In this document: positions 41,106 through 64,000 of the stretch, in pieces | Numbering within the stretch: position 1 is the first letter of the stretch | Layout: the number at the start of each line of letters is the position of its first letter | From: Bacteroides fragilis NCTC 9343 | GTDB taxonomy: Bacteria; Bacteroidota; Bacteroidia; Bacteroidales; Bacteroidaceae | Assembly (NCBI RefSeq): GCF_000025985.1 | Contig: NC_003228.3 | Coordinates: 1-64,000 of the forward strand | Reading direction: 5' to 3' | DNA: 64,000 bases | Notes under the pieces: model-generated | What the model was told of the DNA's origin: nothing | What the model saw: the letters and a program-made list of their open reading frames with translations, nothing else | The model's database searches: none | Translations under genes and position numbers: made by a program

Positions 41106-41123
41106 TGTAAAGTATTACATTTG
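41106..41123 (+). promoter_or_regulatory. -7 box of regulator 1 overlapped by an inverted TGTAA repeat
   Basis: TACATTTG (41116-41123) fits TAnnTTTG, 20 bp before the ATG at 41143. TGTAA-AGTA-TTACA (41106-41119) is a perfect inverted repeat of the regulator's presumed box and covers the upstream half of the -7 box. This suggests autorepression. Confidence 0.5.
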
Positions 41124-41142
41124 TTTGCAAAAACAAACAGTG

Positions 41143-42360
41143 ATGAAACGTTCTAGGTTATTTTTATGGATTTTGGGGATATTGATGCAAGCATTTTTAA
41201 TTAGTATGCACTTCTATCAGAGGAACATGGAAGCAATGTATACCGAAACCGAGTATCTTCTGAAGGAAGTTTTGAATGAGGAACTACACAGAAAGCAATT
41301 AGAGTTAAATATGTTTTATGTTTCTAGAATAGTAGTCGATACTGTTCCTTTAACCATTCGTGTTACAACTAGTGAGGGAGTTAAGACTTATACTGTTGAC
41401 CTCCAGAAAAGTAAAAAGAATATTTCACAAAGTATGGCAGAGCGATCTTGGCACTCAATTGTTTGTATGAAAAGTTGTCTATCTACAGATAGTTTGCAAC
41501 AACTATGGAACGAAAGGCTCAAGAAATCTAAAATTTTTGCTAATACCGACATACATATATCAATAACTCATTTGGATAATACTACCTCTTATTTTAAATG
41601 TAAAACTTGTGACGACCTGTGTTTCGGTACACACAAAATTACTTTTTATGTAGGTAATAGATGTGAAATTGAGATCACTGCTTTCTGGTCTTATTTATGG
41701 CAAGCTATATATCAGTATAATAGCACTCCATTTGAAGTAATAGGTATTGTGGCAGCTGTTCTTATCATTATTTTCTGTAGTTGGTATCTGACGAAGAGAT
41801 ATATATCTAAAATTCGAAATGATAGAAGGCGTTTAGCCAATGATCGGGATCGCGAGAGAAAGGTTCGCATGCAATTGGAGAAGGATCAGAAGAGATTGGA
41901 GGTAAAGCAAAAAGAGTATGAAAGACGAATTAAAGATCTTTCTTTAAAAGGTGAAGAGCGTGAAGAAGAACGAAAAAGTATGGAGAAAATATTGAAAGAG
42001 TATAAGATGCAGATTCAAAAACTTAAAGAATTAAGAGAATCCGGAAAAGAACCGTTACTTTACATACTGAGTTCAAAAGTTACTTTTGATTCCTATGCAA
42101 AACTATTGATTTGTGGTGATCAGTCGATATCTCTAACTTCGCAGGCATGTCAACTATTGGATACTTTCCTGAATGCTCCTGAATATATTTTAACATACGA
42201 GGAACTATTGGAATGTTTATGGAAAGATGGTAGTGGAGACATGATTCGTTTGCGAGTTGCAATTTCTCGTTTACGTATTGTGCTGAGTGTAGATCCTGAG
42301 ATTTCTATTTTTCAGAAGGATATTAATAAATATCAATTAGTACTACCTGAAAAGGGTTAA
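41143..42360 (+). CDS. Transmembrane winged-helix regulator 1 of the NVEALA array
   Basis: A 405-residue protein: membrane helix 1 (about residues 6-24), an extracytoplasmic domain of some 170 residues, membrane helix 2 (about 197-217), a charged coiled coil (about 220-305), and a C-terminal OmpR/PhoB-like winged helix (LTSQACQLLDTFLNAPEYIL, then RLRVAISRLRIVL). The outer domain shares DTVPLTI, SKKNISQ, RSWHSIVC and YVGNRCEIEI with the paralogues at 46514 and 53468. No receiver or kinase exists, so it resembles the ToxR/CadC plan: an outer signal read directly by an inner DNA-binding domain. It lies directly upstream of a type-A peptide whose promoter carries TGTAAT boxes. ATG 41143 is preferred to an in-frame TTG at 41125. 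Confidence 0.75.
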   Translation: MKRSRLFLWILGILMQAFLISMHFYQRNMEAMYTETEYLLKEVLNEELHRKQLELNMFYVSRIVVDTVPLTIRVTTSEGVKTYTVDLQKSKKNISQSMAERSWHSIVCMKSCLSTDSLQQLWNERLKKSKIFANTDIHISITHLDNTTSYFKCKTCDDLCFGTHKITFYVGNRCEIEITAFWSYLWQAIYQYNSTPFEVIGIVAAVLIIIFCSWYLTKRYISKIRNDRRRLANDRDRERKVRMQLEKDQKRLEVKQKEYERRIKDLSLKGEEREEERKSMEKILKEYKMQIQKLKELRESGKEPLLYILSSKVTFDSYAKLLICGDQSISLTSQACQLLDTFLNAPEYILTYEELLECLWKDGSGDMIRLRVAISRLRIVLSVDPEISIFQKDINKYQLVLPEKG

Positions 42361-42381: not shown

Positions 42382-42438
42382 TGTAATAAATTGTAATGTA
42401 TTACATGATATTTTATTGGTTAATAGCCTTTAACTTTG
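42382..42438 (+). promoter_or_regulatory. Phased operator and promoter of type-A peptide 1
   Basis: TGTAAT boxes at 42382 and 42392 (10 bp apart), an inverted copy ATTACA at 42400-42405, and the -7 box TAACTTTG at 42431-42438. No -33 element is present at the expected place. The boxes start 49 and 39 bp before the -7 box, as at the other two regulated promoters. Confidence 0.6.
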
Positions 42439-42464: not shown

Positions 42465-42704
42465 ATGAAGATGAAAAACTATTTAAAAGCAGCTTTTCTT
42501 TTGGTTGCTATCGTTTCTGTTTGGGTTTTAAAACCGATAGAAAAATCTCAGGATGCAGATCCTCTTTTGTTACAAAATGTAGAAGCTTTGGCAAGTGGGG
42601 AAGATTCTTCTCAGACTCATTGTTATGGACGGGGATCTGTAGATTGTCCCGTTAGTCATGATAAGGTAGATGTCGTATATGACTCCTACAGTCTAGGAGA
42701 ATAA
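42465..42704 (+). CDS. NVEALA peptide, type A, copy 1
   Basis: A 79-residue peptide: hydrophobic N-terminal segment (YLKAAFLLVAIVSVWVL), the motif LLLQNVEALASGE, then a tail with two cysteines in the pattern C-x-G-x-GSVDCPVSHDKV and the ending SLGE. It belongs to the NVEALA family (Pfam NVEALA), whose function is not known to me. It should be exported and membrane-held or cleaved. The ALA within the motif fits a signal-peptidase AxA site, but lies about 20 residues past the hydrophobic stretch. A second ATG at 42471 (MKNYLK) matches the start of the other copies. It follows regulator 1. Confidence 0.75.
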   Translation: MKMKNYLKAAFLLVAIVSVWVLKPIEKSQDADPLLLQNVEALASGEDSSQTHCYGRGSVDCPVSHDKVDVVYDSYSLGE

Positions 42705-42807: not shown

Positions 42808-43740
42808 ATGGGAAAATATATCAGTATATTGATCTTAATAGAGACTATTCTTTTAGGATGTCACTCGACAAAAGAGAAGATTGAGTTTTCAAACAGAGTG
42901 ATTTGTAGCGATAGCATATCGCGAGAACTGGTTGTTTTAAATGATACGTTTTTATTTTCGTATCCTTTGCAAATAGAATGTATAGACTCAATGCTACTGG
43001 TATTGGATAATGTTAATAATAATTTCTTCCATCTGTTTACTCTAAAGGGTGTACCCATAAAATCATTTGGAGAAAAAGGGCAAGGGCCTATTGACTTTAT
43101 AAATGTGGAATCATTCAATTTATCTGAAGATAGGGAAACCATGTATGCCTACGATACGTCATTACGTAAAATAGTGAAATATGATGTTTCTTCTTTTTTA
43201 AAAGATTCATTGAAATCTGAGGTTATACAGGTGAATTATGATAGCTTGCCTCAAGCCGAAGTGCCTACAATAGTCTATGATATGCTTTCTCTTAAAGATT
43301 CAAACTTTCTTGTAAAAGCAAATCATAAGGGCCTTCGGTTTGGATTATTAAAAGATGGAAAGATTACTCAATTATACAATTCTTTCTCAGATTGTGTAAA
43401 TACGAACGATGACGAAGAAGTCTGGTCAGTTTTCTGTAGCAATACCAAAACTAAATTAAGACCTGACAGGACAAAGATGTTGAATGCAACCTATCTTGGA
43501 GGAGTATTGGAATTGTTTGATTTGGATGATAATTGTTCCTTATCATTGGCAAAGATACTTTATATTTACGAGCCTAAATATGGTATTGCCGAAGGGGCAA
43601 TACCTAAATATGTTGTTTTCAATGAAACGACTCAGATTGGTAGGTCTTTCACATGTCATTGGAGTGATAACCCTATCACCATTGGTTGGAGCTTGATAAA
43701 ACATACATCAATGGCAGGCTTCTTTTCAAAGAAACAGTAA
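42808..43740 (+). pseudogene. 6-bladed beta-propeller lipoprotein, 3'-truncated chimera
   Basis: The first 834 or so bases are almost identical to the intact gene at 55722: lipobox LLGC, propeller motif FGEKGQGPIDF, ending at NETTQIG. At about 43642 the sequence switches to that of a regulator's membrane helix (the counterpart of 46537-46580) read in another frame, so about 80 propeller residues are lost and replaced by 32 unrelated ones. A one-blade-short propeller is unlikely to fold normally. The frame itself is open, so a chimeric protein could be made. Confidence 0.8.
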
Positions 43741-44046
43741 GCAGCAATGGCTGAAGAGCATTGGCTATAGAGTTTTTGAATCAGCGGTGTCTGGATGTTC
43801 AATCTGTGTAATATTTTTCAATTTATTATTTTAAATGCTCCCGATTATACGGTGAGTGATGAGGATATCATTAAGTTTATTTGGAAAGGCGAAACGAGTA
43901 TTCAGATAAATACGTTTTGTTCTGCCGGAAACAAATTAGGGAAGAGATTGGAGTAAGCTGGTTGTGACGTTTGCTTCAGGCGTTTTGGAACCGATTGTTA
44001 TCGTATGTTGTTCATAGAGGATCTTGTTGGCAATGATTTGATATAA
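43642..44046 (+). pseudogene. Relic of a regulator like the one at 46514
   Basis: Two pieces of a regulator gene remain. 43653-43697 matches its first membrane helix region. 43836-44046 matches its C-terminal winged helix (from the counterpart of DAPDYTVTDEDIIKF to the stop), with an added stop codon near 43955. The piece between (about 43698-43835) is foreign: in one frame it reads KTYINGRLLFKET followed by a stop, origin unknown. Confidence 0.75.
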
Positions 44047-44095
44047 ATGGCAATAAAATTGATAGCAGTTTATCCAAAATCTCTTTTTACCTTTG
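44039..44095 (+). promoter_or_regulatory. Operator-like boxes and promoter of type-A peptide 2
   Basis: TGATATAAAT and GGCAATAAAA, 10 bp apart, lie 49 and 39 bp before the -7 box TACCTTTG (44088-44095). This matches the promoter at 47646-47702 and is kept although the adjacent regulator is a relic, so control from the intact regulator at 46514 is plausible. Confidence 0.5.
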
Positions 44096-44127: not shown

Positions 44128-44355
44128 ATGAAAAACTATATGAAATTAATCTTTGGGTTAATAGTCTTGATCGGGTATTGGCCTACCACGAAAATTCCTA
44201 AGAGAGTAAATTCCCTATTCTTGCAAAATGTAGAGGCGCTTGCCGGCAGTGAACACGTTACCAATTTAGGTTGCTTGGGTGACGGATCTGTAGATTGTCC
44301 TATTAACCATATCAAAGTAGAACATGTGGTTCAAGGATTTAGTCTTGGGGAGTGA
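44128..44355 (+). CDS. NVEALA peptide, type A, copy 2
   Basis: A 75-residue peptide nearly identical to copy 3 at 47735: hydrophobic segment (KLIFGLIVLIGYW), SLFLQNVEALAGSE, then CLGDGSVDCPINHIKV and the terminal SLGE. It is two residues shorter in the hydrophobic part. Both cysteines are kept. It follows the regulator relic and precedes hairpin cassette A, so it is part of a decayed duplicate of the 46.5-50.6 kb module. Intact start and stop codons and a kept promoter suggest that it is still expressed. Confidence 0.75.
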   Translation: MKNYMKLIFGLIVLIGYWPTTKIPKRVNSLFLQNVEALAGSEHVTNLGCLGDGSVDCPINHIKVEHVVQGFSLGE

Positions 44356-44413
44356 GGATTCATTTTATATAAATCTCATCACACTAGAATCATTCATTGC
44401 ATTATCAATTAGG

Positions 44414-44581
44414 GTTAGAAAGGGAGTGAACGATCTACGTCCTGGGAAAAGTCTTAGAATCGTTCACTCCCGGATAACCTTTAAAAAAGGAGGTTGCCCG
44501 GCACGAAGATAGCGAAAAATTTATTGGAATGAGTAAATGTAGCATTTACTTTTTCTACGGCGGAGGTGGCTACCCGAAATA
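44414..44581 (+). repeat. Hairpin cassette A
   Basis: A conserved non-coding block. Stem 1 is GGGAGTGAACGAT (44422-44434) with ATCGTTCACTCCC (44459-44471) around a conserved 24-nt loop. Then comes a small CCTTT/AAAGG hairpin, and finally AGTAAATG-TAG-CATTTACT (44532-44550) followed by TTTT, which looks like an intrinsic terminator. Copies occur at 48027, 55142 and, in part, 57437. Confidence 0.75.
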
Positions 44582-44690
44582 TCCTTGCTCCCATACGTGT
44601 TCTGATGGAGTAGGACGTTGCTACAAGGTTTATGATGATTAGGGAAACTGTCATTTTGACGGTAGTCAAACATATTCTTGTGCCTGCTAA
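44582..44690 (+). pseudogene. Relic of an NVEALA type-B peptide
   Basis: It matches the Cys-rich tail of the gene at 48234 (CSRTCSDGVGRCYKV and onward) but has lost start codon, membrane segment and NVEALA motif by a deletion that joins the hairpin cassette directly to the tail. An in-frame TAG replaces the codon for Trp near 44639. Confidence 0.8.
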
Positions 44691-44819: not shown

Positions 44820-45938
44820 ATGAAGAATATCTTGTTAACACTTCTCTTGTTTATACTTTTTTCATGTAAAAGCACTGGAGATAAAACCGACTGTGAAGTA
44901 TTACATGTCGATTTGGTTGAACGCCCTGTTCCAACAGAAGAATTATTTTCTAAAATATCTGTCATTCCATTGGAAACCAATGATAGTTCCTTTCTTGTAA
45001 GGCCTGTAAAAGTTATTATAAAAGATAACGGATATTATATTGTCGATGAAGGGGTTCCGGCTGTGTTTTCTTTTGATGAAGAAGGGCACCTTTTGCATAA
45101 AATAGGTAAAAAGGGACAAGGCCCCGGAGAGTATCGTGAAATATATGATGCCGTTATTAAAGAAAAAGAAAATGCAGTGTATATGCTATCTCCATTTGGC
45201 TCTCTTTATGTGTATTCTCTGGATGGAAAATTCATAAAAGAAATAAAACTGCCAACGAGGTCTAATTATCAATTGATAGAGGAACTGGATAGTAAGTATT
45301 TCGTTACATGGACATTACCTGCTTCTGAGAATGAAAATTGTATCAGCGTTATTTCTAAAGAGTCTTTCAATAATGTGAAAGAATTTTGGCATGTCCCTCC
45401 CGTTCTCACTACTCTGAATTCTAAACCTTTTTATAATTATGAACATAAAGTATATTTTTCGAATCCTTATCAAAATGAAGTATATGAAGTAAGGACAGAT
45501 AGCTTACGGGTTGCATACCGTTGGGATTTTGGAAAAGATAATCTTGATTTGAAGGAGTATGGATTCACTTTATTAGAGGATCAAAAGGTTGAGGAATATA
45601 AATTAATGTTGCAGTGTTTACGTGATTCTACTGTACCTTATTTATTAAGGCATCAATTTCAGAATAAAAAATATTATTATACCATGTTGACGTTTGGCTT
45701 TCGGCATCGGATAAATCTGTTTTATCGAAAGGATGACGGCAAGAGTTTCTTTTTTGAGAAAACAGCGGAAGGTGTTTTGCTCCATCCTTTAGCCTTTAAT
45801 GAAGATTTTCTGACTTGTATTGTTTTCAATGAAGACTTTCCAAACTATGAAAAAGTGCTTCCTTCGGAGGAATATAAGAAGCTGGAAGAGCGTTTAGAAG
45901 ATGATAACCCCTGTTTAATCAAATTTTATTTTAAATGA
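44820..45938 (+). CDS. 6-bladed beta-propeller lipoprotein (copy 2)
   Basis: A 372-residue lipoprotein: lipobox LFILFSC (about Cys16), then a repeated propeller with the family phrase IGKKGQGPGEY and blades such as YMLSPFGSLYVYSLDGKFIKEI. It is nearly identical to the gene at 48631 except for a patch at residues 262-325 where about 20 positions differ. It should sit on the periplasmic or outer face. Its stop overlaps the start of a broken thioredoxin-like gene (ATGA). Function is unknown; propellers of this type are usually ligand- or peptide-binding. Confidence 0.8.
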   Translation: MKNILLTLLLFILFSCKSTGDKTDCEVLHVDLVERPVPTEELFSKISVIPLETNDSSFLVRPVKVIIKDNGYYIVDEGVPAVFSFDEEGHLLHKIGKKGQGPGEYREIYDAVIKEKENAVYMLSPFGSLYVYSLDGKFIKEIKLPTRSNYQLIEELDSKYFVTWTLPASENENCISVISKESFNNVKEFWHVPPVLTTLNSKPFYNYEHKVYFSNPYQNEVYEVRTDSLRVAYRWDFGKDNLDLKEYGFTLLEDQKVEEYKLMLQCLRDSTVPYLLRHQFQNKKYYYTMLTFGFRHRINLFYRKDDGKSFFFEKTAEGVLLHPLAFNEDFLTCIVFNEDFPNYEKVLPSEEYKKLEERLEDDNPCLIKFYFK

Positions 45939-46054
45939 AAAATCTTATACTGGTGTTAGGTTGTTTTTTCTTTCTAATCTCATGTCAGCAGACCGAGAAG
46001 GAAAGACTTGAAGAACTTGTTAAAAATTGGAATGGGAAGGAGGTACTATTGTAA
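45935..46054 (+). pseudogene. 5' stump of a thioredoxin-like/DUF1573 lipoprotein
   Basis: Forty or so codons match the gene at 49746 (LVLGCFFFLISCQQTEKE, NWNGKEVLL), then a stop arises where the sequence jumps to the tail of a propeller gene. Only the lipoprotein signal and the first helix remain. Confidence 0.85.
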
Positions 46055-46185
46055 AGAAAGTGATACTGGATAGATGGGATATATGCATCTCGGTGGATAG
46101 TAATGATGAGCGACTCTGCCTGATGACAAAGGAAACGGATGGTGGAGAAGAGCGTTATCATTATTATTGTTATCAGTTAAACTGA
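46051..46185 (+). pseudogene. 3' tail of a propeller gene
   Basis: Matches the last 135 bases of the gene at 52054 (VKKVILDRWG to the stop) with few changes. The joint to the preceding stump is at about 46050. The same tail is present at 57249-57383. Confidence 0.85.
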
Positions 46186-46250
46186 CTTTTTTATTAGGGT
46201 GTTACGGGGTTGCTTGATATGTATATTTTTTGTTTTTCAAATTTTTCTTT

Positions 46251-46420
46251 ATGCAGGGATGGAACAGACAAGCGGGAGGAGGCTTTGTTATTTTCGGGCA
46301 ATAACCGTGATGAATTTGAAACGGTACTGAATGCAATCTATCTTGGAGGAATATTGGAATTAGTTGACTCGTACAAGAGTTCTTGTTTGCGTGTGAAATG
46401 AACAGAATACTTACAAACTG
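46251..46420 (+). pseudogene. Mosaic of gene fragments
   Basis: 46251-46331 resembles the start of the transglutaminase-like gene at 62080 (the part encoding RDRQVEEALSLSGNNRNELE). 46328-46363 resembles a propeller segment (LNATYLGGVLEL). 46370-46420 resembles a propeller 3' end. No intact protein is encoded; the pieces record past deletions and rearrangements. Confidence 0.65.
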
Positions 46421-46513: not shown

Positions 46514-47653
46514 ATGACAAAAAATAAATTGCTTTCGTGTGTTATTGGAGTGATAATCCTATCACTATTGGTTGGAGCCTATTTCTATCAACGAAATAAG
46601 GTGGCTGTACATCAACAGGCGGAGAGGCTATTCGTACAGATGCTTCAAGAAGAGATAGAAAGAAAAGAAAGAAATTTAAATCTATTTCATCTGTTTTCTG
46701 AGAGTTCATCTGATACTTTACCTTTGAAAATTTGCATTATCACAGAAGAGGGGAAAAAAGAGTATGAGGTTGATTCCCTGAAAAGTAAAAAGAACATTTC
46801 TCAGAACCTGAGAAACCGGTCAATACACTCTATATTATGTGAGAAATCCCATTTATTGCCGGATTCTTTAAATGAACATTGGCAGAGTATGCTTAAGAAA
46901 GATCACATTGATACAGAGTCCACTATACATGTGCGGATGGAAAATCTTCAAGGAAAGATTATTAGTTCATCAAGTCACGATGGTGTGTGGGATACTTCTT
47001 CTGGGATTATAACTTCATATATAGGTAATCGTTGTGAGATAGAGGTCATCGGTCTTTTAGCTTTTAGTTGGAAAACAATATTATGGTATCATTGGCAACC
47101 TTTTGGATGGATTGTAATTTGTTTGTTATTGATGCTTTTATTTATCTGCTTTTATTATAAAAAGGTGAATCGCCCTCCGGAATTAAAAGAGGTTCCTTAT
47201 GAGGTTGTCGTTGAAAAGGAAGTCGTTGTTGAGAAAGAGGTCATTCGTGAGATAATAGTTGAAAAAGAAACATCTCCGGAAAAAAAGGCACCTTTAATAA
47301 AGCAAATTTGTAAAGTAGAAGGACAACTATATGGTTTACGTTATGGAGTTGTTTTTGATTCCCAGAATAGAGTTCTTAATTGTAATGGCAAGAAAATGTC
47401 TTTGTCCCCCCAACAGTGTCAGATTCTAAAGCTTTTTTTAGATGCTCCCGATTATACTGTGACTGATGAGGATATTATTAAGTTTATTTGGAAAGGTCAA
47501 TCGAACGTTCAGATAAATACGTTTTGTTCTGCCGGAAACAAATTAGGGAAGAGATTAGAGCAAGCTGGTTGTGGTGTTTGTTTCAGGCGTTTTGGAAGCG
47601 ATCGTTATCGTATGTTGTTCATAGACGACCTTGTTGATAATGATTTGACATAA
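46514..47653 (+). CDS. Transmembrane winged-helix regulator 2 of the NVEALA array
   Basis: A 379-residue paralogue of the regulator at 41143: membrane helix 1 (about 7-24), outer domain with DTLPLKI, SKKNISQ, RSIHSILC and YIGNRCEIEV, membrane helix 2 (about 196-215), a short linker made of repeated VEKEV units (EVVVEKEVVVEKEVI), and a C-terminal winged helix (LSPQQCQILKLFLDAPDYTV, then RFGSDRYRMLF). The linker replaces the long coiled coil of the other two. It is followed by type-A peptide copy 3, whose promoter has variant boxes. The stop codon lies within the first box, which ties gene and operator together. Confidence 0.75.
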   Translation: MTKNKLLSCVIGVIILSLLVGAYFYQRNKVAVHQQAERLFVQMLQEEIERKERNLNLFHLFSESSSDTLPLKICIITEEGKKEYEVDSLKSKKNISQNLRNRSIHSILCEKSHLLPDSLNEHWQSMLKKDHIDTESTIHVRMENLQGKIISSSSHDGVWDTSSGIITSYIGNRCEIEVIGLLAFSWKTILWYHWQPFGWIVICLLLMLLFICFYYKKVNRPPELKEVPYEVVVEKEVVVEKEVIREIIVEKETSPEKKAPLIKQICKVEGQLYGLRYGVVFDSQNRVLNCNGKKMSLSPQQCQILKLFLDAPDYTVTDEDIIKFIWKGQSNVQINTFCSAGNKLGKRLEQAGCGVCFRRFGSDRYRMLFIDDLVDNDLT

Positions 47654-47702
47654 ATGGCAATAAAATTGATAGCAGTTTATCCAAAATCTCTTTTTACCTT
47701 TG
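47646..47702 (+). promoter_or_regulatory. Operator-like boxes and promoter of type-A peptide 3
   Basis: TGACATAAAT (47646) and GGCAATAAAA (47656), 10 bp apart, start 49 and 39 bp before the -7 box TACCTTTG (47695-47702). The position equals that of the TGTAAT boxes of regulator 1; the sequence is a variant. Confidence 0.5.
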
Positions 47703-47734: not shown

Positions 47735-47968
47735 ATGAAAAACTATATGAAATTGATCTTTGGGCTTGGTTTAATAGCCTTGGTCGGGTATTGGCCTGCC
47801 GCGAAAACTCCTAAGAGAGTAAATTCCTTATTCTTGCAAAATGTAGAGGCGCTTGCCGGTAGTGAACACGTTACCAATTTAGGTTGCTTGGGTGACGGAT
47901 CTGTAGATTGTCCTATTAACCATATTAAAGTAGAATATGTGGTTCAAGGATTTAGTCTTGGGGAGTGA
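47735..47968 (+). CDS. NVEALA peptide, type A, copy 3
   Basis: A 77-residue exported peptide: hydrophobic segment (KLIFGLGLIALVGYW), SLFLQNVEALAGSE, then CLGDGSVDCPINHIKV with two cysteines and the terminal SLGE. It is the first gene after regulator 2 and is separated from the type-B peptide by hairpin cassette B. Its tail is nearly invariant across copies 2 and 3 and similar in copies 1 and 4, in contrast to the variable type-B tails. It may be a signal ligand of the regulator or a structural partner; this is inference from position. Confidence 0.75.
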   Translation: MKNYMKLIFGLGLIALVGYWPAAKTPKRVNSLFLQNVEALAGSEHVTNLGCLGDGSVDCPINHIKVEYVVQGFSLGE

Positions 47969-48026
47969 GTGCTCTTTTATATAAATCTTATCACACTAGA
48001 ATCATTCATTGCATTATTAACTTGGG

Positions 48027-48190
48027 TTAGAAAGGGAGTGGACGATCTACGTCCGGGAAAAGTCTTAGAATCGTTCACTCCCGGATAACCTTTAAAAAAG
48101 GAGGTTGCCCGGCACGAAGATAGCGAAAAAATAATTGGAATGAGTAAATGTAGCATTTACTTTTTTTACGGAGGAGGTGGCTCCCCGAAA
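48027..48190 (+). repeat. Hairpin cassette B
   Basis: Second copy of the cassette. Stem 1 is 48034-48046 with 48070-48082; it has GGACGAT in place of GAACGAT, which turns an A-T pair into a G-T pair and keeps the stem. The terminator-like hairpin is 48143-48161 followed by a T run. Confidence 0.75.
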
Positions 48191-48233: not shown

Positions 48234-48500
48234 ATGAGTAAAAAGATTTTTGCGGCCCTGATAGTCGCTGTAGTCGCAACTTTTGCAGGCTACAATATAT
48301 ATCAGTCACAGAAAACAGAGAAAATAGTTTCAGACTTGGTGATAGCTAATGTCGAAGCATTGGCAGGCGATACTGAGGGCGGTGCTACTATCACTTGCTC
48401 CCGTACGTGTTCTGACGGAGTAGGACGTTGCTACAAGGTTTATGATAAGTGGGGAAACTGTCATTTTGACGGTAGTCAAACATATTCTTGTACCTGCTAA
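48234..48500 (+). CDS. NVEALA peptide, type B, six-cysteine tail
   Basis: An 88-residue peptide. The first 30 residues are nearly invariant among type-B copies (MSKKIFAALIVAVVATFAGY, then NIYQSQ): a signal-anchor-like helix. After ANVEALAGD comes a unique tail of about 35 residues with six cysteines (TCSRTCS, GRCYK, GNCHF, SCTC), likely disulfide-bonded. It lies after hairpin cassette B and before a propeller lipoprotein and a CxxC thioredoxin-like lipoprotein. A relic of the same tail is at 44582. Confidence 0.8.
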   Translation: MSKKIFAALIVAVVATFAGYNIYQSQKTEKIVSDLVIANVEALAGDTEGGATITCSRTCSDGVGRCYKVYDKWGNCHFDGSQTYSCTC

Positions 48501-55721: not shown

Positions 55722-56789
55722 ATGGGAAAAAATTTTAGTATATTGATCTTAATAGGGACTATTCTTTTAGGGTGTCACTCGACAAAAGAGAAGATTGAGT
55801 TTTCAAACAGAGTGATTTGTAGCGATAGTATATCGCGAGGACTGGTTGTTTTAAATGATACGTTTTTATTTTCGTATCCTTTGCAAATGGAATGTATAGA
55901 CTCAATGCTACTGGTATTGGATAATGTTAATAATAACTTCTTCCATCTGTTTACTCTAAAGGGGGTACCTATAAAATCATTTGGAGAAAAAGGGCAAGGG
56001 CCTACTGATTTTATAAATGTGGAATCATTCAATTTATCTGAAGATAGAAAAAACATGTATGCCTACGATACGTCATTACGTAAAATAGTGAAATATGATG
56101 TTTCTTCTTTTCTAAAAGACTCATTGAAATCTGAGGTTATACAGGTGAATTATGATAGCTTGCCTCAAGCCGAAGTGCCTACAATAATCTATGATATGCT
56201 TTCTCTTAAAGATTCAAACTTTCTTGTAAAAGCAAATCATAAGGGTCTTCGGTTTGGATTATTAAAAGATAGAAAGGTTACTCAATTATACAATTCTTTC
56301 TCAGATTGTGTAAATACGAATGATGATGAAGAAGTCTGGTCAGTTTTCTGTAGCAATACCAAAACCAAATTAAGACCTGACAGGACAAAGATGTTGAATG
56401 CAACCTATCTTGGAGGAGTATTGGAATTGTTTGATTTGGATGATAATTGTTCCTTATCATTGGCAAAGATACTTTATATTTACGAGCCTAAATATGGTAT
56501 TGCCGAAGGGGCAATACCCAAATATGTTGTTTTCAATGAAACGACTCAGATTGGTTTTGAGGACATATATGTAACCAATAATAGTATATATACATTATTA
56601 CATAGTATAGGGAGTGAAACTTTACCTTCGGAAATTACTGTATTTAATTGGGAGGGAATTCCGATAACTAAAATTAAAACAGGGTGCTCCCTCTCTAATA
56701 TTGCCGTCGATGAGAAGGATAACGCAATCTATGTAATTGCCGAGAACGAACAGAATGCTTATGAGCTTTCTTGTTTGTCTTTAAATTGA
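55722..56789 (+). CDS. 6-bladed beta-propeller lipoprotein (copy 6)
   Basis: A 355-residue intact lipoprotein (lipobox LLGC, about Cys15) with the family phrase FGEKGQGPTDF and blades such as LFTLKGVPIKSF and ITVFNWEGIPITKIKTG. It is the full-length counterpart of the truncated gene at 42808, with which it is nearly identical over the first 280 residues, and of the fragments at 53107-53400. A broken propeller gene follows directly. Confidence 0.8.
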   Translation: MGKNFSILILIGTILLGCHSTKEKIEFSNRVICSDSISRGLVVLNDTFLFSYPLQMECIDSMLLVLDNVNNNFFHLFTLKGVPIKSFGEKGQGPTDFINVESFNLSEDRKNMYAYDTSLRKIVKYDVSSFLKDSLKSEVIQVNYDSLPQAEVPTIIYDMLSLKDSNFLVKANHKGLRFGLLKDRKVTQLYNSFSDCVNTNDDEEVWSVFCSNTKTKLRPDRTKMLNATYLGGVLELFDLDDNCSLSLAKILYIYEPKYGIAEGAIPKYVVFNETTQIGFEDIYVTNNSIYTLLHSIGSETLPSEITVFNWEGIPITKIKTGCSLSNIAVDEKDNAIYVIAENEQNAYELSCLSLN

Positions 56790-56802
56790 TTTATATTTTG
56801 TT

Positions 56803-57383
56803 TTTTTACGGAAGTGGGACTTTTGAAAGTGGCCTGATAGCAAAATGTAATCAGAAAAAGGTTTTAAATCAATATCTCCCTTTTCCACAAACAGAGCAAG
56901 CGGTAAATCGGGATGTAAACTATTTGTTGTTCCAGGGGGGATCTTATTATGAAGCCGGATAAAAAACGTTTTGCTTACTTGGCGTATGAGTGCGATTTAT
57001 TATCTATTCAGAAAGTGGTAAATGACACGTGCCTGGAAAGTGTAGTACATTTGAATACGTATACGCCGTTATTTGAGAATCAATCTACTAACGAAGTGTC
57101 TTCTGTTAATGTCTCTACCGATTCTCCTAAAGGATTTCTTCGTGGGGTAGCCACTGAAAACTATGTTTATGCACTTTACAGTGGGCAAATTGGGAAAAAT
57201 AAGGCAATAGCAAATGAAGTTTATGTATTTGATTGGGAAGGACGTGCTGTAAAGAGAGTGATACTGGATAGATGGGGTATATGCATCTCGGTGGATAGTA
57301 ATGATGAACGACTCTGCCTGATGACAAAGGAAACGGATGGTGGAGAAGAGCGTTATCATTATTATTGTTATCAGTTAAACTGA
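56803..57383 (+). pseudogene. 3' half of a propeller gene with frameshift
   Basis: Matches positions 52526-53106 of the gene at 52054 with few substitutions, but lacks the 5' half and start. It carries one extra G in a G run (56935-56940, six against five), which breaks the frame. It joins the end of the intact gene at 55722 without a gap of its own. Confidence 0.85.
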
Positions 57384-57531: not shown

Positions 57532-57783
57532 ATGAGTAAGAAGATTTTTGCAGCCCTGATAGTCGCTGTAGTCGCAACTTTTGCAGGCTACAATATATAT
57601 AAGTCACAAAGAGCAGAGGTGACAATGTCGGATTTGGCAATGGCAAATGTGGAGGCATTGGCAGATTCTCGCGAATCGTCGGCTGATTGTACGTTTGGGA
57701 ATGTAAATTATGATCAGTATTCCAATACTTTGCATTGCAGTGGTAATGGTACACTTTGTTGTAAAAAAACAGTAGCAGGATAG
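57532..57783 (+). CDS. NVEALA peptide, type B, four-cysteine tail
   Basis: An 83-residue peptide with the invariant type-B N-terminus (one change, NIYKSQ), MANVEALADS, and a third unrelated tail (ADCTFGNVNYDQYSN, HCSGNG, LCCKK) with four cysteines. There is no type-A peptide or regulator directly before it; it sits behind the broken propeller gene and partial cassette D. It precedes the propeller gene at 57856 and is probably transcribed from the module promoter at 54862 or an unseen one. Confidence 0.8.
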   Translation: MSKKIFAALIVAVVATFAGYNIYKSQRAEVTMSDLAMANVEALADSRESSADCTFGNVNYDQYSNTLHCSGNGTLCCKKTVAG

Positions 57784-57855: not shown

Positions 57856-59007
57856 ATGGTGACAAAGTGGAAAATTACAGTTGGGCTACTACTTATACTA
57901 TTTTGTGGTTGTAGCCAAGTGAAAGAATTGCATGAAAGCAGTACAATTATTTCTTTTAAAGAACATACTGATGTAAATGCGGATAGTATATTAGAGTTAT
58001 CTTTCTTAAAGCTTCAAACAAAAGATTCATGTTTGGTAAAGAATGTTGGGCTTATTAGAGAATTAAATAATTGTTTATTAATATTGGATTCTGCCAACTC
58101 TAATTTGTATGTTTTTAACAAATCAGGAGCTTTTGTAAATCAGATAGGACAGAAGGGAAGTGGCCCCGGTGAATATATATTGTTATCTTCATTTTTTGTA
58201 GACAATAATAAAAATTATATTGCCGCAATTGATATTGCCCAAGATAAAGTATTGTATTACAATGCGACTGATTTTAGTTTTTTGTACGAAAGGAGATTAC
58301 CTTTTAGTACATCTTGCTGTTTACAGTTAGAGGATGGTAATTTGCTTTGGAATAGTAGAGAATATACAGACTCTAAATTATCTGACTTCTATTTTGTGGT
58401 TACAGATTCTTTGTTTGATATTATAGATTATAAAATGAATAAAGAGTTTAAATCTGGTTATACAACAGGGCCTTCTCAAATGATATATAAGGTTGGAACC
58501 AATGTATTTGCATATACTCCTTTTGATTTGACGATTTATAGAGTGGGTACTTCTGAGATAGTTCCTGCTCATTCTTTTTCATTTGAGGGTACTGATATCC
58601 CTTCTTTAGATTTTCTGAATAAAACTAGTAATCAGGGAAACTCTAATTACTTATATGATCTGATTCAATCCGATTATATTTCTTATTATTGTGTAGAAGA
58701 AACTGAACGTGATTTGTTTGTATGCTATATGAAAAATAAAGAAAAGTATATAGGGTTGTATGATAAGAATACTGATAGAACGTATAATTATCCAATTAAA
58801 ATATTTCAGGATCAGTTAAAGGTCGGTGAACTGAATTATTTTAGTATAGGTTCAGTTGATGATTATCATGTGGCTCCATTGGATGTATTATCCTTAAAAG
58901 ATATGGCAGGAAATGGATATGTGTTTGATGATAAGTTGTCTGAATTGCTAACAATATCGAACGAAGAGGATAATTCTATATTATTATTTGTTCGGATTAA
59001 AAAATAG
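57856..59007 (+). CDS. 6-bladed beta-propeller lipoprotein (copy 7)
   Basis: A 383-residue lipoprotein (LLLILFCGC lipobox) of the propeller family with IGQKGSGPGEYILL near residue 100. It is divergent from the other copies. Blades include LLILDSANSNLYVFNKSGA and KVLYYNATDFSFLYERRL. It is followed 8 bp later by the thioredoxin-like/DUF1573 lipoprotein, repeating the propeller-redox gene pair seen at 48631-50615. Function is unknown. Confidence 0.78.
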   Translation: MVTKWKITVGLLLILFCGCSQVKELHESSTIISFKEHTDVNADSILELSFLKLQTKDSCLVKNVGLIRELNNCLLILDSANSNLYVFNKSGAFVNQIGQKGSGPGEYILLSSFFVDNNKNYIAAIDIAQDKVLYYNATDFSFLYERRLPFSTSCCLQLEDGNLLWNSREYTDSKLSDFYFVVTDSLFDIIDYKMNKEFKSGYTTGPSQMIYKVGTNVFAYTPFDLTIYRVGTSEIVPAHSFSFEGTDIPSLDFLNKTSNQGNSNYLYDLIQSDYISYYCVEETERDLFVCYMKNKEKYIGLYDKNTDRTYNYPIKIFQDQLKVGELNYFSIGSVDDYHVAPLDVLSLKDMAGNGYVFDDKLSELLTISNEEDNSILLFVRIKK

Positions 59008-59015
59008 AACGCTGT

Positions 59016-59885
59016 ATGAAAAGTGGGTTGATCTGTTGTTTAATGCTCTGCATATTATTGGTTGGTTGTGAAGGTAAAAAGGTGAAAGGTATTAAAAATA
59101 TGGTAGATAGCTGGATGGGAAGAGAGATTCTTTTTCCCAATAGTGTTTCATGTATGGCTTTAAAGGAGTCTAATTTGGGACTTATTGAGCGGAGGACAGA
59201 TTATACTATCGTTTCTTATATTGACTCTAGCGGATGTACTGCTTGTAAAATGCAATTGAGAAAATGGATGGAAGTGATAAACTGTTTTGATTCATTAAAT
59301 ACGAATGTCAAATTTCTTTTTTATTTGCATCCGAAAGAGCCAAAAGAAATCACTTATTTATTAAAACGTGATGGTTTTGAGTATCCCGTTTTTGTTGATA
59401 GATTAGATTCATTTAACATATTAAATCATTTTTCTACTGATATTAATTTCTGTACATTTCTGCTTGATAAAACTAATAGAGTAATAGCTATAGGTAACCC
59501 TCTTTATAGTAAAAAAGTTAAGGATTTATATAAGGGTATTGTTTTGAAAAGGAAAGAAGTAACTGTCTCTGGAATTTTACAGACAGAAACGACGTTGCCG
59601 AAATCTTCTATTGATATGGGAAGTTTTTCTTCTGAGAAATCCCAATCTTGTATTTTTACTTTATATAATATAGGTAAAAATATGCTTGTCATTGATGATG
59701 CGGTTACATCTTGTGGGTGTACTTCAGTGGAGTATTCAAAAGAACCGGTTTCGCCAGGGAAGTCTTTGGATATCATTGTAACTTATAAAGCGGATCATCC
59801 GGAGCACTTTAATAAAACTATTACGGTATACTGTAACTCTTCTGTGTCTCCATTGCGATTAAAGATAATGGGGAATGCTAAATAG
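59016..59885 (+). CDS. Thioredoxin-like/DUF1573 lipoprotein, second copy
   Basis: A 289-residue paralogue of the gene at 49746: lipobox LLVGC (Cys18), thioredoxin-like region with YIDSSGCTACKMQLRKW (CxxC at Cys74/Cys77), NFCTFLLDKTNRVIAIGNP, and a C-terminal DUF1573 with VTSCGCTSVEYSKEPV. The last 60 residues are highly similar between the copies (KADHPEHFNKTI), while the thioredoxin-like part has diverged. It is probably periplasmic and redox-active towards disulfides. It precedes the EALA-motif peptide at 59928. Confidence 0.8.
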   Translation: MKSGLICCLMLCILLVGCEGKKVKGIKNMVDSWMGREILFPNSVSCMALKESNLGLIERRTDYTIVSYIDSSGCTACKMQLRKWMEVINCFDSLNTNVKFLFYLHPKEPKEITYLLKRDGFEYPVFVDRLDSFNILNHFSTDINFCTFLLDKTNRVIAIGNPLYSKKVKDLYKGIVLKRKEVTVSGILQTETTLPKSSIDMGSFSSEKSQSCIFTLYNIGKNMLVIDDAVTSCGCTSVEYSKEPVSPGKSLDIIVTYKADHPEHFNKTITVYCNSSVSPLRLKIMGNAK

Positions 59886-59927
59886 TTTGAAATGAAATAT
59901 ATTTGTTGAACTTTAAATTTGATTATT

Positions 59928-60293
59928 ATGAGGAAAAAACTTGTTTTAAGTGTAATGGGTATTCTATTGATTTTAGGTACTGTTACAAATGTAATGTTTA
60001 CAAGAGCGGAGAAGTCTTCTGATAGAGCCTGGTTGGCTTCTATTGAAGCTTTAGAAGCTTTGGCTGAAGATGAAATAGGGGGCAGTCCGGGTGGATGTGG
60101 AACTGCGGTTGGGACTGTTTTGGAAGAGCAAGAGTGTAATGGGCGTAAGGTACTATCTCGTTATCTTGTAAAATTCTCCTGCACAGGTTCAAGGACGGGG
60201 GTATGTCAATCTGGTACTATTTATTATTTTTATGATTGTTATGGAGCACAAATTGCAGAAAATGATTTTACGAGATCAATACCTTGTCAATAA
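59928..60293 (+). CDS. EALA-motif peptide, type-B related, six-cysteine tail
   Basis: About 121 residues: hydrophobic segment (LVLSVMGILLILGTVTNVMF), then WLASIEALEALAEDE, a duplicated version of the NVEALA motif, and the longest tail of the set with six cysteines (GGCGTA, EQECNG, FSCTG, GVCQS, YDCYG, PCQ). It overlaps the next gene. ATG 59928 is used rather than a TTG three codons earlier. Its position after a thioredoxin-like lipoprotein matches that of the copy at 50660. Confidence 0.7.
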   Translation: MRKKLVLSVMGILLILGTVTNVMFTRAEKSSDRAWLASIEALEALAEDEIGGSPGGCGTAVGTVLEEQECNGRKVLSRYLVKFSCTGSRTGVCQSGTIYYFYDCYGAQIAENDFTRSIPCQ

Positions 60294-61524
60294 AAAGATT
60301 GCTTGGTACCGTATAGTATCGGTTTTATTGTTTCTTAGTGCTTTTTCTTCTTGTTCTTTGGTGGAGAAATCAAAGAACGAAATATATATAGCTGATCTGG
60401 ATAGTGCCATTCAGAAAGATTGGTATTTGTATTCTGATGTGTTTAAATCTGTAAGAGTGATTCCTTTGGCAATGGATAAATCTGTGTTGCTGGGAGACGT
60501 TAATAAAATGCAGGTTTATAAAGGTCATTATATTGTACTTGATGAAGAGATAGCACGCGGAGTATATCTTTTCGATTCTAAAGGGCGGTTTATCCGTAAG
60601 ATAGGTGATGTGGGCAGTGGACCGGGAGAATATTCTAAGCCGACAGATTTTACGATTGATACAAAAAAAGGGGAAATATATATATTCGATTATAGTCAAA
60701 AAAAGATATTTAAGTATGATATTGCTTCGGGAAAGTATTTAGGAGTTTGCAATGTTGAACATCGATTGAATCGGATGTTTTTTTCAAAGGGGTACTTGTA
60801 CGCAAATATTGATTATCAATTGGAAGATGAACCTGGACAAGAGCATTACCTATTACAAAGAATCGACTTTGATAATGAAGGTAATGTAGAAATGTTTTTT
60901 AAAGTAGCTGATTACAAAAAGGGTTGGGACGGGATAGCTCTTCAAGGGAATATGTTTTTTAATTTAGGAACTGAGTCTGCTCTTTTTGTTCAGGACTTTA
61001 TGGATACGATTATCTATGTGAATGGGGATCAGGTTATTCCTTATATGGTAGTGAAGAGTCAGGATTGGGTGTGTAAAACAGATTTAGAAATACTTGGGAC
61101 TACTGATAATCCTTCGGCCAAAGGATTGGCTATGATGAAGCTGATTCAGCATTTAGGGGCACAAAGAAGGGCCTATAATCTATCTGATGTGTTTGTGAAC
61201 GACTCTGTTATTGGGTTTTCGTATATGCAAGGAATGATGGGGACGGATGCGTTGTATGATAAGAGTACGGGTGAAACTATGGTGTTTGATCGCTCTAAAG
61301 ATGATGTGTTGTTCGGAGAGCAACCATCACACAGGCAGATACCTACTTTTTTGTATGCGAGTGATAGAGGTGTTTTCTATTCTCTTAAACCCAGTCATTT
61401 GCCTGAGATGAAGTATTTTATCTCTCAAGGCCTTGTGAAGGATGAAGTGATTGGGAAAAATGATTTGGATTCTTTGGATGGTGATGCAAATCCGGTGTTA
61501 TTGTATTATGAATATAAAGATTAA
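60262..61524 (+). CDS. 6-bladed beta-propeller lipoprotein (copy 8)
   Basis: A propeller lipoprotein of about 420 residues, the longest of the set. The signal is VSVLLFLSAFSSC and the family phrase IGDVGSGPGEYSKP is followed by IYIFDYSQKKIFKYD. The N-terminal phrase FKSVRVIPLAMDKSVLLGDVNKMQVY is typical of the family. The frame overlaps the end of the peptide gene at 59928; ATG 60262 places the signal closest to the N-terminus, with ATG 60241 as alternative. Its 3' end overlaps the next gene by 17 nt, so translation is coupled. Confidence 0.78.
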   Translation: MILRDQYLVNKKIAWYRIVSVLLFLSAFSSCSLVEKSKNEIYIADLDSAIQKDWYLYSDVFKSVRVIPLAMDKSVLLGDVNKMQVYKGHYIVLDEEIARGVYLFDSKGRFIRKIGDVGSGPGEYSKPTDFTIDTKKGEIYIFDYSQKKIFKYDIASGKYLGVCNVEHRLNRMFFSKGYLYANIDYQLEDEPGQEHYLLQRIDFDNEGNVEMFFKVADYKKGWDGIALQGNMFFNLGTESALFVQDFMDTIIYVNGDQVIPYMVVKSQDWVCKTDLEILGTTDNPSAKGLAMMKLIQHLGAQRRAYNLSDVFVNDSVIGFSYMQGMMGTDALYDKSTGETMVFDRSKDDVLFGEQPSHRQIPTFLYASDRGVFYSLKPSHLPEMKYFISQGLVKDEVIGKNDLDSLDGDANPVLLYYEYKD

Positions 61525-62083
61525 GATAGTATTAATAGGATTGGTTATCAGTAACTTCTTTCTTCTATGGAATGTTGTAACACAAAGGATAAAAGTATAT
61601 GACGGTTTGGATAGGATAAATGATCTAAAAGAAAAGGTTGATAGTTGTGGAGATTCATTCTTTAATTATATAGATGTGAATAGTGACCTTACTTTTGATA
61701 TTAAACCCATTGATACTTTAAAAAATGTGCAATTAGTATATTGTTTTTCCGAGTATATGTGTGAGGAATGTGTACGACAGGATTTATGTGTATTATTGGA
61801 TATTCAGAAACGAATTGGTGCAGATAGGATATTAATACTTACGGCATATGCTGATAATCGGAATAATCATATTAGGTTGAGTAATTTATTGCGAAAATTT
61901 CGATATAGGAATATAGATTATTCTTGTCTTGTTTTTCCTAAGCATAATAGGACTGGAATGGATCAACGTTACTTTTATTTTATAGATAAGGACGGGAATT
62001 GTAAATATCCTTTTTATCCTCTTAAAGATCACCTTGAGTTGACACAATACTATTTAGGGTTTATTGCTAAAAAGATAGTATGA
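61508..62083 (+). CDS. Membrane-anchored thioredoxin-like protein with CEEC motif
   Basis: A 191-residue protein with an N-terminal anchor helix (VLIGLVISNFFLLWNVV), then a thioredoxin-like segment in which VYCFSEYMCEECVRQDL puts a CxxC at Cys85/Cys88 after a beta strand, followed by RILILTAYAD and YFYFIDKDGNCKYPF. I do not recognise a named family. It overlaps both neighbours (17 nt upstream, ATGA downstream), so it is part of the same transcript as the propeller and the transglutaminase-like gene. A thiol-redox role near the outer face of the inner membrane is inferred. Confidence 0.62.
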   Translation: MNIKIKIVLIGLVISNFFLLWNVVTQRIKVYDGLDRINDLKEKVDSCGDSFFNYIDVNSDLTFDIKPIDTLKNVQLVYCFSEYMCEECVRQDLCVLLDIQKRIGADRILILTAYADNRNNHIRLSNLLRKFRYRNIDYSCLVFPKHNRTGMDQRYFYFIDKDGNCKYPFYPLKDHLELTQYYLGFIAKKIV

Positions 62084-64000
62084 AGAGGACTGAAATATTT
62101 ATAGCGACCGGTTTATTTTGCCTTGTTTCTTCATGCGGGGGCAGAGACAGACAAGTGGAGGAGGCCTTATCCCTTTCGGGCAATAACCGTAATGAACTTG
62201 AAGCGGTGCTGAAGCATTATGAAGGAGATGGCCGGAAGCTGGAGGCGGCACGCTTCTTGATTGGCAATATGCCCGGAAGTTATGGAGCTAATCCGATAGT
62301 AGAGCAGGATTGTTCTGCTTTTTACGAGGCTTATGATTCATTGGGACAAAAGTATGGCTATCGGGTAGGAACGGAATGGGGGAAACAGGTAGATAGTCTT
62401 TGGCAAAATTTTAGTAATCGACATCGGGTGAGACAGGAGCTTAACTATGATATTACCCGCATGAAGGCGGAAGATTTAATCCGGGAAATTGATCTGGCAT
62501 TTCGGGCATGGGTGGAGAATGTGCATTCAAGAAACTGTTCGTTTGAAGATTTTTGTGAGTATATACTGCCTTATAGGCGACAGAATGGCTTATTGATTGA
62601 CAATGCACGCCGGGAGTTCAACAAACGGCATCAGGGAAAGTATTTTGTGAAAGAGGGAAAGGATTGGCAACAAGAGATCGATTCGTTGTTATACGAATAT
62701 AAGTATCTGACTCATTCCGGTTTTTGGGGGACGAAGATTCCGATATGGAATGCGGCGACTCTTGAGAAGATGCGTCATGGGTTATGTGCACAGCGCTGTT
62801 GGTATAACTCTTTGTTATTATCATCATTGGGGATTCCGGTTGCCATTGACTTTGTTCCGGCATGGGGAAACCGAAATAATTCGCATACCTGGAATGTGGT
62901 GCTAATAAACGGGGAATCGCATGCTTTTGAGGCGTTTTGGGATAATGATCGCTGGAAATATAAGCGGATTTATAATAACCGGAATGATGATGAGCTTTGG
63001 GGAAGATTCCGCCTTCCGAAGGTATACAGATATACCTATTCAAATCACATTGAAGGACCGTTGGCAGATGTAGAGGTGGATAAAGCTGATATTCCGGAGC
63101 TATTTCGTAGTGTGAAAAAGGTGGATGTTTCTTCGGAGTATTTTGAAACGGCCGATGTAACGGTGGAGTTGACAGGTGAGGCGCCTCAAGGGGTGAAATA
63201 TGCGTATTTGGCTGTGTTCGGATATCAGGACTGGCACCCTGTGCAGTGGGGAAAGGTAGAAAACGGGAGGGCTGTCTTTCGGGAAATAGGTAAGGATATG
63301 GTTTATTTACCCGTTTATTACAAGCGGGGAGGATTATTGCCCGCAGCAGAACCTTTCAGATTGCGGAATGACGGAACGATGGAGAAGCTGAGCGGAAATG
63401 AAGGAACAGAGGAGGTTGCCGTGAGGATGGTGACGGGAGCGCCGGCTTATGATCAGAATAGGGAATATCTGGGGTGTATGAAAGGAAGCCGGATAGTAGG
63501 ATTACTTGATGGAAAATCAGAAGAAGAACTGTGCAGATGGACGGACTCGCTGGCTCTGCAGTCGGTTGTACGGAAGGTGTCCGCACGATTACCTTACCGT
63601 TTTGTAAGGTTATTATTACCGTCGGATAGCATTGCTTTGGGGGAGCTTTCTTTTTATACGGAAGAAGGACGGATCGGGAATGTGAGGATAATTACTCCGA
63701 TGAGAGCTACCGGAAGGAATGAAGTGCCCGGGATGATAACCGATGGTTTGGGGGCGACGGGCTATAGAGGCAGGGTGGCAGAAAGGCTGGTAGATATAGA
63801 TCTGGGAAAAGAGTATATGGTCAGTCATATTGGAATGACTTCTTACCTGAAAACACAGTTGTTCTGTCCGGATGAATTTGAGTTAAGATATTGGGATAAT
63901 GGTTGGAAGACTGTGGAGCGTAAGCAAGCTGATCATAAAGGGTATCTTGTATTTGAGAGAGTGCCCCGGGGAGCATTGCTGATGTTGAAAAACTGTCGCT
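62080..64000 (+). CDS. Transglutaminase-fold lipoprotein (runs off window)
   Basis: At least 640 codons, open to the window end. It has a lipoprotein signal (LFCLVSSC, Cys19), about 200 residues of helical N-terminal region, then a transglutaminase-like core. In the core, Cys236 in HGLCAQRCWYNSLLL is followed at the usual distance by LGIPVAIDF, His269 is in NNSHTWNVV and Asp288 in FEAFWDND, a complete Cys-His-Asp triad. The rest (from about 330) is beta-rich and undefined. Such folds act as peptidases, transglutaminases or peptide-N-glycanases. It may process the array's peptides. A fragment of its 5' end is found at 46251. Start ATG overlaps the preceding stop. Confidence 0.75.
   Translation, partial: MKRTEIFIATGLFCLVSSCGGRDRQVEEALSLSGNNRNELEAVLKHYEGDGRKLEAARFLIGNMPGSYGANPIVEQDCSAFYEAYDSLGQKYGYRVGTEWGKQVDSLWQNFSNRHRVRQELNYDITRMKAEDLIREIDLAFRAWVENVHSRNCSFEDFCEYILPYRRQNGLLIDNARREFNKRHQGKYFVKEGKDWQQEIDSLLYEYKYLTHSGFWGTKIPIWNAATLEKMRHGLCAQRCWYNSLLLSSLGIPVAIDFVPAWGNRNNSHTWNVVLINGESHAFEAFWDNDRWKYKRIYNNRNDDELWGRFRLPKVYRYTYSNHIEGPLADVEVDKADIPELFRSVKKVDVSSEYFETADVTVELTGEAPQGVKYAYLAVFGYQDWHPVQWGKVENGRAVFREIGKDMVYLPVYYKRGGLLPAAEPFRLRNDGTMEKLSGNEGTEEVAVRMVTGAPAYDQNREYLGCMKGSRIVGLLDGKSEEELCRWTDSLALQSVVRKVSARLPYRFVRLLLPSDSIALGELSFYTEEGRIGNVRIITPMRATGRNEVPGMITDGLGATGYRGRVAERLVDIDLGKEYMVSHIGMTSYLKTQLFCPDEFELRYWDNGWKTVERKQADHKGYLVFERVPRGALLMLKNCR

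Follow-up and report, generated by a model that had tools for sequence, protein, structure and literature searches.

Do the small peptide, propeller and redox-type lipoprotein genes packed between 41.1 and 64.0 kb of the Bacteroides fragilis NCTC 9343 DNA studied here form one system, and if so, what does it do? The window, i.e. the whole stretch analysed, comprises positions 1 to 64,000 of contig NC_003228.3 in a genome of 5.24 Mb on two contigs. A first-pass annotation had described a repeated order of regulator, type-A peptide, hairpin cassette, type-B peptide, propeller and DUF1573 lipoprotein genes, and had proposed a single secreted-peptide system. Recurring neighbourhoods in 56 loci from several genera and co-occurrence across 249 genomes bear out the proposal of one system, and the reading that we find best supported, and consider moderately probable, is that the array is a regulated system for trimming, oxidising and exporting small peptides. 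This reading builds on direct observations of the gene families, their neighbourhoods, the pairing of genes, their co-occurrence, the parity of cysteines and promoter-like boxes.

All genes of the array lie on the + strand. With R denoting a regulator, A and B the two types of NVEALA peptide, P a propeller, D a thioredoxin-DUF1573 lipoprotein and T a transglutaminase-like protein, the gene order is R-A-P in unit 1, (R remnant)-A-(decayed B)-P-(D remnant) in unit 2, R-A-B-P-D-B-P-P in unit 3 and R-A-B-P-(decayed P)-B-P-D-(NVEALA-like)-P-CEEC-T in unit 4. The array is real, with three intact regulators, the remnant of another, and four type-A and four intact type-B peptides, and it ends as had been described, i.e. 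with a CEEC protein and then a transglutaminase-like lipoprotein. That the order occurs four times holds if decayed units are counted, although the four units all differ in completeness. The features are listed below, where TAnnTTTG is the sequence that we take to be the consensus of the Bacteroides -7 box.

41116..41123, +, TAnnTTTG box before regulator R1
41143..42360, +, regulator R1: transmembrane helix, predicted periplasmic domain, transmembrane helix, coiled coil, OmpR-type winged helix (Trans_reg_C 1.7e-8)
42431..42438, +, TAnnTTTG box before A1, the first type-A peptide
42465..42704, +, NVEALA peptide type A (A1)
42808..43740, +, propeller lipoprotein, 3' end altered
43807..44040, +, remnant of a regulator C-terminus with one stop, 78% identity to the regulator at 46514
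44088..44095, +, TAnnTTTG box before A2
44128..44355, +, NVEALA peptide type A (A2)
44392..44579, +, hairpin cassette copy 1
44584..44690, +, type-B peptide gene decayed to its C-terminal half, 94% DNA identity with the copy at 48394
44820..45938, +, propeller lipoprotein (DUF5128)
45935..46401, +, remnant mosaic: start of a DUF1573-type lipoprotein, propeller tail, T-like/propeller pieces
46514..47653, +, regulator R3
47695..47702, +, TAnnTTTG box before A3
47735..47968, +, NVEALA peptide type A (A3)
48003..48190, +, hairpin cassette copy 2
48234..48500, +, NVEALA peptide type B
48631..49749, +, propeller lipoprotein (DUF5128 3.9e-45)
49746..50615, +, lipoprotein of 289 aa with CxxC thioredoxin-like part and DUF1573 (1.7e-28)
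50660..50902, +, NVEALA peptide type B
50970..52025, +, propeller lipoprotein (TolB_like)
52054..53106, +, propeller lipoprotein
53468..54817, +, regulator R4 with a 156-nt in-frame repeat in the coiled coil
54862..54869, +, TAnnTTTG box before A4
54894..55127, +, NVEALA peptide type A (A4)
55120..55307, +, hairpin cassette copy 3
55360..55632, +, NVEALA peptide type B
55722..56789, +, propeller lipoprotein (TolB_like 1.2e-28)
56771..57383, +, decayed propeller gene
57532..57783, +, NVEALA peptide type B
57856..59007, +, propeller lipoprotein (DUF5128 6.3e-111)
59016..59885, +, lipoprotein of 289 aa with CxxC and DUF1573 (4e-28)
59919..60293, +, divergent NVEALA-like peptide (..IEALEALAEDE.., 6 Cys), found by iterated profile only, no Pfam match
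60232..61524, +, propeller lipoprotein (DUF5128 5.6e-34)
61502..62083, +, CEEC (CxxC) protein with hydrophobic N-terminus, no Pfam or NCBIfam match
62080..63999, +, transglutaminase-like lipoprotein, running past the window end to ~64062, no Pfam match itself

All eight type-A and type-B peptides of the window exceed the cut-off of 27 bits for the Pfam family NVEALA (PF14055), as do all 16 NVEALA matches in the whole genome. Among 161 NVEALA-profile genes from array loci of many genomes, 146 fit the motif pattern; A stands at -3 in 144 of these and at -1 in 144, counts that are partly built in because the pattern presets A/S at -3 and A/G/S/T at -1, and E stands at +3 in 124. Most of the 15 genes that miss the motif still have A at -1. 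The alanines are compatible with cutting of NVEALA pre-peptides by a signal peptidase of the S26 type. Counted over the predicted mature parts (146 distinct sequences, partly different from the motif-bearing set), cysteines are even in number in 121 cases and odd in 25. Mature type A is predicted to have 28-39 residues and a single conserved core, C-x-G-x-G-[SN]-V-[DV]-C-P..KV, whereas mature type B varies in length (median 39 residues, range 8-93) and in cysteine number. Among the best 120 of 894 database matches to type A, 117 bear NVEALA and 105 of the 117 have the strict form C-x-G-x-G-xxx-C, the remaining twelve being mostly near variants or shortened.

By profile search, NVEALA genes are present in at least 17 of 295 Bacteroidales and at least 70 of 249 Bacteroidaceae genomes, both counts being lower bounds as often only the best candidates per genome were scored. 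We assembled 56 loci (992,060 bases), i.e. 52 regions from 51 genomes, hand-picked from the listed matches (one per genome except one with two) and cut at 20 kb, together with the four loci of the B. fragilis genome outside the window. The expectation that the array families would be neighbours elsewhere was borne out in their content (propeller in all 56 loci, D in 42, T in 35), although not in a fixed order; 14 of the 56 lack D and 21 lack T, and some stretches stop at contig ends. A match to the regulator profile was found in 36 of the 56, including fragments and four response regulators. None of six local array profiles had a match in the flanking control DNA (89,903 bases), which came from the B. 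fragilis genome only. In that genome the 16 NVEALA matches fall into five loci: the window, 224 kb, 489-494 kb, 881 kb and 3489-3494 kb. Propellers occur in all five, and DUF1573-like proteins in all except the 224-kb locus.

Clustering of the other genes in the 56 loci revealed recurrent partners, namely S26 (27 loci), Wzy_C (26), an RND adaptor (16), RND permeases (12) and a TolC-like channel (6). Representatives assign these partners to signal peptidases (PF10502), Wzy_C (PF04932) and HlyD-type adaptors, and S26, Wzy_C, T and D genes often overlap or lie less than 30 nt apart. The S26 representative matches PF10502 at 2.5e-27, and its best matches in the PDB are signal peptidase I, down to 2.8e-22; the stretches S-M-x-P, KRC..PGD and GD..DSR, presumably signal peptidase boxes, are invariant in five aligned sequences. 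The B. fragilis genome contains one such set, which adjoins its 3490-kb NVEALA locus:

3476323-3477390, -, RND adaptor, 59% identity to the adaptor of locus L080 (which matches HlyD_D23 at 2.8e-16)
3477819-3479477, -, Wzy_C protein
3479483-3480346, -, S26 signal peptidase

A permease (ACR_tran 8.9e-175) and an outer membrane channel (OEP 1.3e-33) beside the adaptor complete a tripartite RND-TolC pump.

We searched the 249 Bacteroidaceae genomes with profiles for S26, Wzy_C, the regulator and the adaptor. In nearly every genome the S26 profile also picks up ordinary signal peptidases, at ~1e-28 to 1e-36; the dedicated S26 group was counted at E <= 1e-46. S26 was present in 58 of 70 NVEALA-positive and 9 of 179 NVEALA-negative genomes (Fisher P 8.5e-35), Wzy_C (threshold 1e-50) in 60/70 and 3/179 (P 4.4e-43), the regulator in 40/70 and 2/179 (P 1.1e-24), and the adaptor in 64/70 and 20/179 (P 2.9e-34); all of these P values are overstated because of shared ancestry and because the S26 and Wzy_C thresholds were chosen after seeing the lists. 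Within the genus itself (48 genomes) the corresponding numbers were 24/27 and 1/21 for S26, 20/27 and 0/21 for the regulator, and 25/27 and 2/21 for the adaptor, and G357, one of the three S26-negative NVEALA-positive members, has an S26-like fragment beside Wzy_C. S26 and adaptor occur together in 64 genomes and lie within 10 kb of each other in 43 of the 52 that have both on one contig. Four of the nine NVEALA-negative genomes with S26 encode sub-threshold NVEALA-like peptides in the S26 locus, with motifs ending in EALA, EALS or EALT. The dedicated signal peptidase, the even cysteine numbers and the CxxC found in 38 of 41 full-length thioredoxin-DUF1573 proteins give indirect support to the suggestion that cysteine-rich peptides are oxidised or processed.

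From these observations we infer the cleavage site, the topology, export, peptide activity and the order of steps as follows. NVEALA proteins would be pre-peptides held in the inner membrane by their N-terminal helix, and would be cut by the dedicated type I signal peptidase, the most likely cleavage point being behind the A-x-A in N-[VI]-E-A-L-A. The released peptides would gain disulfides, aided by the CxxC lipoproteins, would be held or checked in the periplasm by the propeller lipoproteins, and would exit through the dedicated RND-TolC pump. The Wzy_C protein and the transglutaminase-like protein may modify the peptides, and the winged-helix regulator with two transmembrane helices, encoded beside the first peptide, would switch the operon. 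As S26, Wzy_C and the pump are absent from the window, they would act in trans on its peptides; in this genome all five loci would share the single set at 3.47-3.48 Mb. If true, this would give Bacteroidales a second, widespread peptide route, served by a signal peptidase, pump and regulator of its own, and the NVEALA, 6-bladed propeller and DUF1573 families would gain a testable joint role.

Besides the overstated P values, several points weigh against this scheme, for which the support comes from sequence analysis. Twelve of the 70 NVEALA genomes lack S26 at the threshold used, 20 of 179 NVEALA-negative genomes have the adaptor, and in five of the nine S26 loci of NVEALA-negative genomes no NVEALA-like peptide was found. 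The spacer between hydrophobic core and A-x-A has a median of 22 residues in type A and 24 in type B; the distance from core to cleavage site is usually shorter for signal peptidase I, so that an ordinary signal-peptide cut there is disfavoured. S26 may instead cut at the end of the core, because many leaders have a second A-x-A-like stretch there (67 of 104 type B, 14 of 32 type A). RND pumps usually carry small molecules. Finally, 38 of the 50 genome-wide match rows for the propeller family PF17170 lie outside NVEALA loci and 12 inside; propellers are therefore enriched in these loci, yet not confined to them.

The pairing of regulator and type-A peptide suggests another role, i.e. peptide signalling, in which the adjacent regulator has type A as its ligand (self-induction) and controls type B as the output. 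We regard this as possible, if tentative. In its favour, 35 of 39 long regulators adjoin an NVEALA gene (in loci picked for NVEALA) and 28 of the 39 have type A adjacent, in tandem or divergently; the mature core of type A is conserved, as described above; and a domain is predicted between the two transmembrane helices of the regulator, which has a winged helix at its C-terminus. On sequence grounds, type A could plausibly act as a signal for the regulator. A fuller version, in which disulfide-looped type A is cut by S26, exported by RND-TolC and read in the periplasm by the adjacent regulator as a cell-to-cell signal that induces the variable cysteine-rich peptides and their lipoprotein partners, is somewhat more doubtful. 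The predicted sensor domain gave no clear fold match.

TAnnTTTG was found upstream of 25 of 50 R genes (5.9 expected) and 21 of 34 A genes (5.2 expected), compared with 38/221 P (28.2), 11/66 D (8.4) and 1/47 T (4.8). Regulators of the ToxR/CadC type have an N-terminal winged helix, one transmembrane helix and a C-terminal periplasmic domain. The array regulator also has an OmpR-type winged helix in a membrane protein, but its predicted order (transmembrane helix, domain, transmembrane helix, winged helix) differs, the winged helix being C-terminal behind the second transmembrane helix, and its gene adjoins a peptide gene. R1 shows 99% identity to a protein of an uncultured Bacteroides assembly and 78-79% to proteins of two B. 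fragilis genomes. Relatives of the window regulators were found in the B. fragilis genome only in the window and at 223 kb and 488 kb (by protein and profile search, 11 of 36 profile candidates being scored); a more divergent regulator lies at 3494 kb, and the 881-kb locus has no regulator. In genomes of another family (L120, L121 and L123) a response regulator is encoded near the NVEALA gene, and in L120 and L123 it adjoins a gene that clusters with the histidine kinase of L072.

The type-B peptides could alternatively be antibacterial, hitting neighbouring cells while the propeller lipoprotein that follows shields the producer. A propeller does follow directly, on the same strand, in 98 of 127 type-B genes, and the mature parts vary in length and cysteine number, with copies that are duplicated and shuffled. 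However, a propeller is also the next gene after 19 of 34 type-A genes (9 of the others precede another NVEALA gene and 6 a D gene), propellers occur far from NVEALA matches, and nine array and partner proteins gave no PADLOC match at E <= 0.001. Described Bacteroidales peptide clusters mostly combine a double-glycine (GG) leader with a C39 transporter (PMC10352776). NVEALA peptides resemble those ribosomally synthesised and post-translationally modified peptides (RiPPs) and bacteroidetocins in being small leader-bearing peptides of gut Bacteroidales, but their leaders have no GG motif and end in EALA, and a signal peptidase and RND pump take the place of C39. No C39/ABC exporter was among the 17 recurrent neighbour clusters (judged by Pfam where scanned and by the N-terminus for the rest), and the array was not placed in the double-glycine/C39 class. 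We consider an antibacterial role unlikely.

It is about as improbable that the array is an envelope module, in which NVEALA proteins are membrane subunits or sensors and S26, Wzy_C and the pump make or export, say, a glycan or small molecule. Members of the Wzy_C and RND families often act on such compounds, and the long spacer from helix to A-x-A would fit a leader that stays in place, whereas the even cysteine number and the variable mature parts suit a released peptide better and S26 tracks the presence of NVEALA.

Trimming and export of peptides, the reading we prefer, leaves the location of the lipoproteins to be considered. The window propellers match DUF5128 or TolB_like, and the two 289-aa lipoproteins match DUF1573. 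SusG of B. thetaiotaomicron needs acidic residues at +3/+4, in the signal CS(D/E)2, to be exported to the surface (PMC6222051). Of 276 lipoproteins with a pattern-found lipobox 3 carry such a signal, namely two of the 190 propellers, one of the 48 D and none of the 38 T proteins; SusD was a poor control here, and the count covers the acidic type and leaves other kinds of signal possible. Because this signal is nearly absent, the periplasmic side of the outer membrane is the likeliest location of the array lipoproteins as judged from sequence, and the surface handling of peptides proposed in the first-pass annotation is not favoured. A relative of T in locus L011 matches Transglut_core with 20.2 bits (7.6e-4), below the 23-bit cut-off, and G-x-C...H-x-W occurs in 33 of 39 T proteins longer than 500 aa, with a following D in 23. 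A protein of 626 aa lies between T and the signal peptidase in L106 (14338-16218; GtaA_6/DUF5127, glutaminase-A-like) and also in L102, L109 and L176. Lipoproteins of ~387 aa recur in 10 loci (L080, L082, L101 and seven others), that of L080 matching DUF4221; such proteins may substitute for propellers. A second dense cluster of PF17170 propellers, without NVEALA matches, lies at 4.95-4.98 Mb in the B. fragilis genome.

No description of an NVEALA system was found in the literature searched, where the word NVEALA gave no match and matches for PF14055 concern, by their titles, malaria parasites or enzyme profiles. For the NVEALA family itself the analysis tools returned no function; its split into types A and B, the pairing with a regulator and the link to a signal peptidase and pump stem from the present analysis. 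A dedicated signal peptidase is known in SipW, which acts with TasA; in both systems an extra type I signal peptidase is encoded near its likely substrates, whereas the NVEALA system is found in Bacteroidota and has many small cysteine-containing peptides as putative substrates and an RND pump nearby. The main text of the RiPP survey (PMC10352776) mentions no propeller, signal peptidase or DUF1573. In B. thetaiotaomicron, BT0662 (O-antigen ligase), BT0664 (6-bladed propeller), BT0667 (signal peptidase I) and BT0669 (RND adaptor) are separate rows of iron-response tables with P 0.11-0.35 (PMC10434189). Their annotations give the same mix as the NVEALA partners, a likeness by annotation and not by alignment, which makes BT0662-BT0669 a lead to a tractable strain rather than a description of the system.

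The array repeats fall into families with 63 to 99% DNA identity, several at 90-99%, and the propeller at 42808 matches the 55722 copy at 96% for 278 residues and then continues into different sequence, i.e. it is a chimera. Repeats of up to 99% identity and a chimeric propeller indicate recent copying and recombination inside the array, and the mosaic at 45935-46401 looks as if left by recombination between copies. We give almost no credence to the idea that unrelated lipoprotein and peptide families were merely assembled by tandem duplication with no joint function, since it would account for the recent duplication, the chimera and the abundance of propellers genome-wide, but is contradicted by the co-occurrence tables, in which S26, Wzy_C and the pump track NVEALA, and conflicts with the recurrence of the neighbourhoods across several genera. 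In R4 the 156-nt in-frame tandem repeat (54180-54491, 87% identical) extends the coiled coil.

The hairpin cassette is present in three full copies, each between A and B, and as a 36-nt piece at 57444, and is absent after the first type-A gene (42465). Its predicted RNA folding beats that of shuffled sequence in all three copies (z -3.85, -2.70 and -2.55), and the main stem of copy 1 is 13 bp. The relative G511 carries more copies, in which a few stem positions have changed in both arms (judged without a formal pair count); this hints that the RNA stem is conserved. The cassette is a local feature of this lineage and would possibly lower read-through from A to B.

Separate from the array, the window contains a C39-type peptide cluster at 749-13935, with genes for a TolC-like protein, two erythromycin-esterase-family proteins, a glycosyltransferase, HlyD and a C39 peptidase-ABC transporter, and with a weak LanC-like match just below the cut-off. 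The protein encoded there at 4069-4602 has a GG-type leader, as judged by eye.

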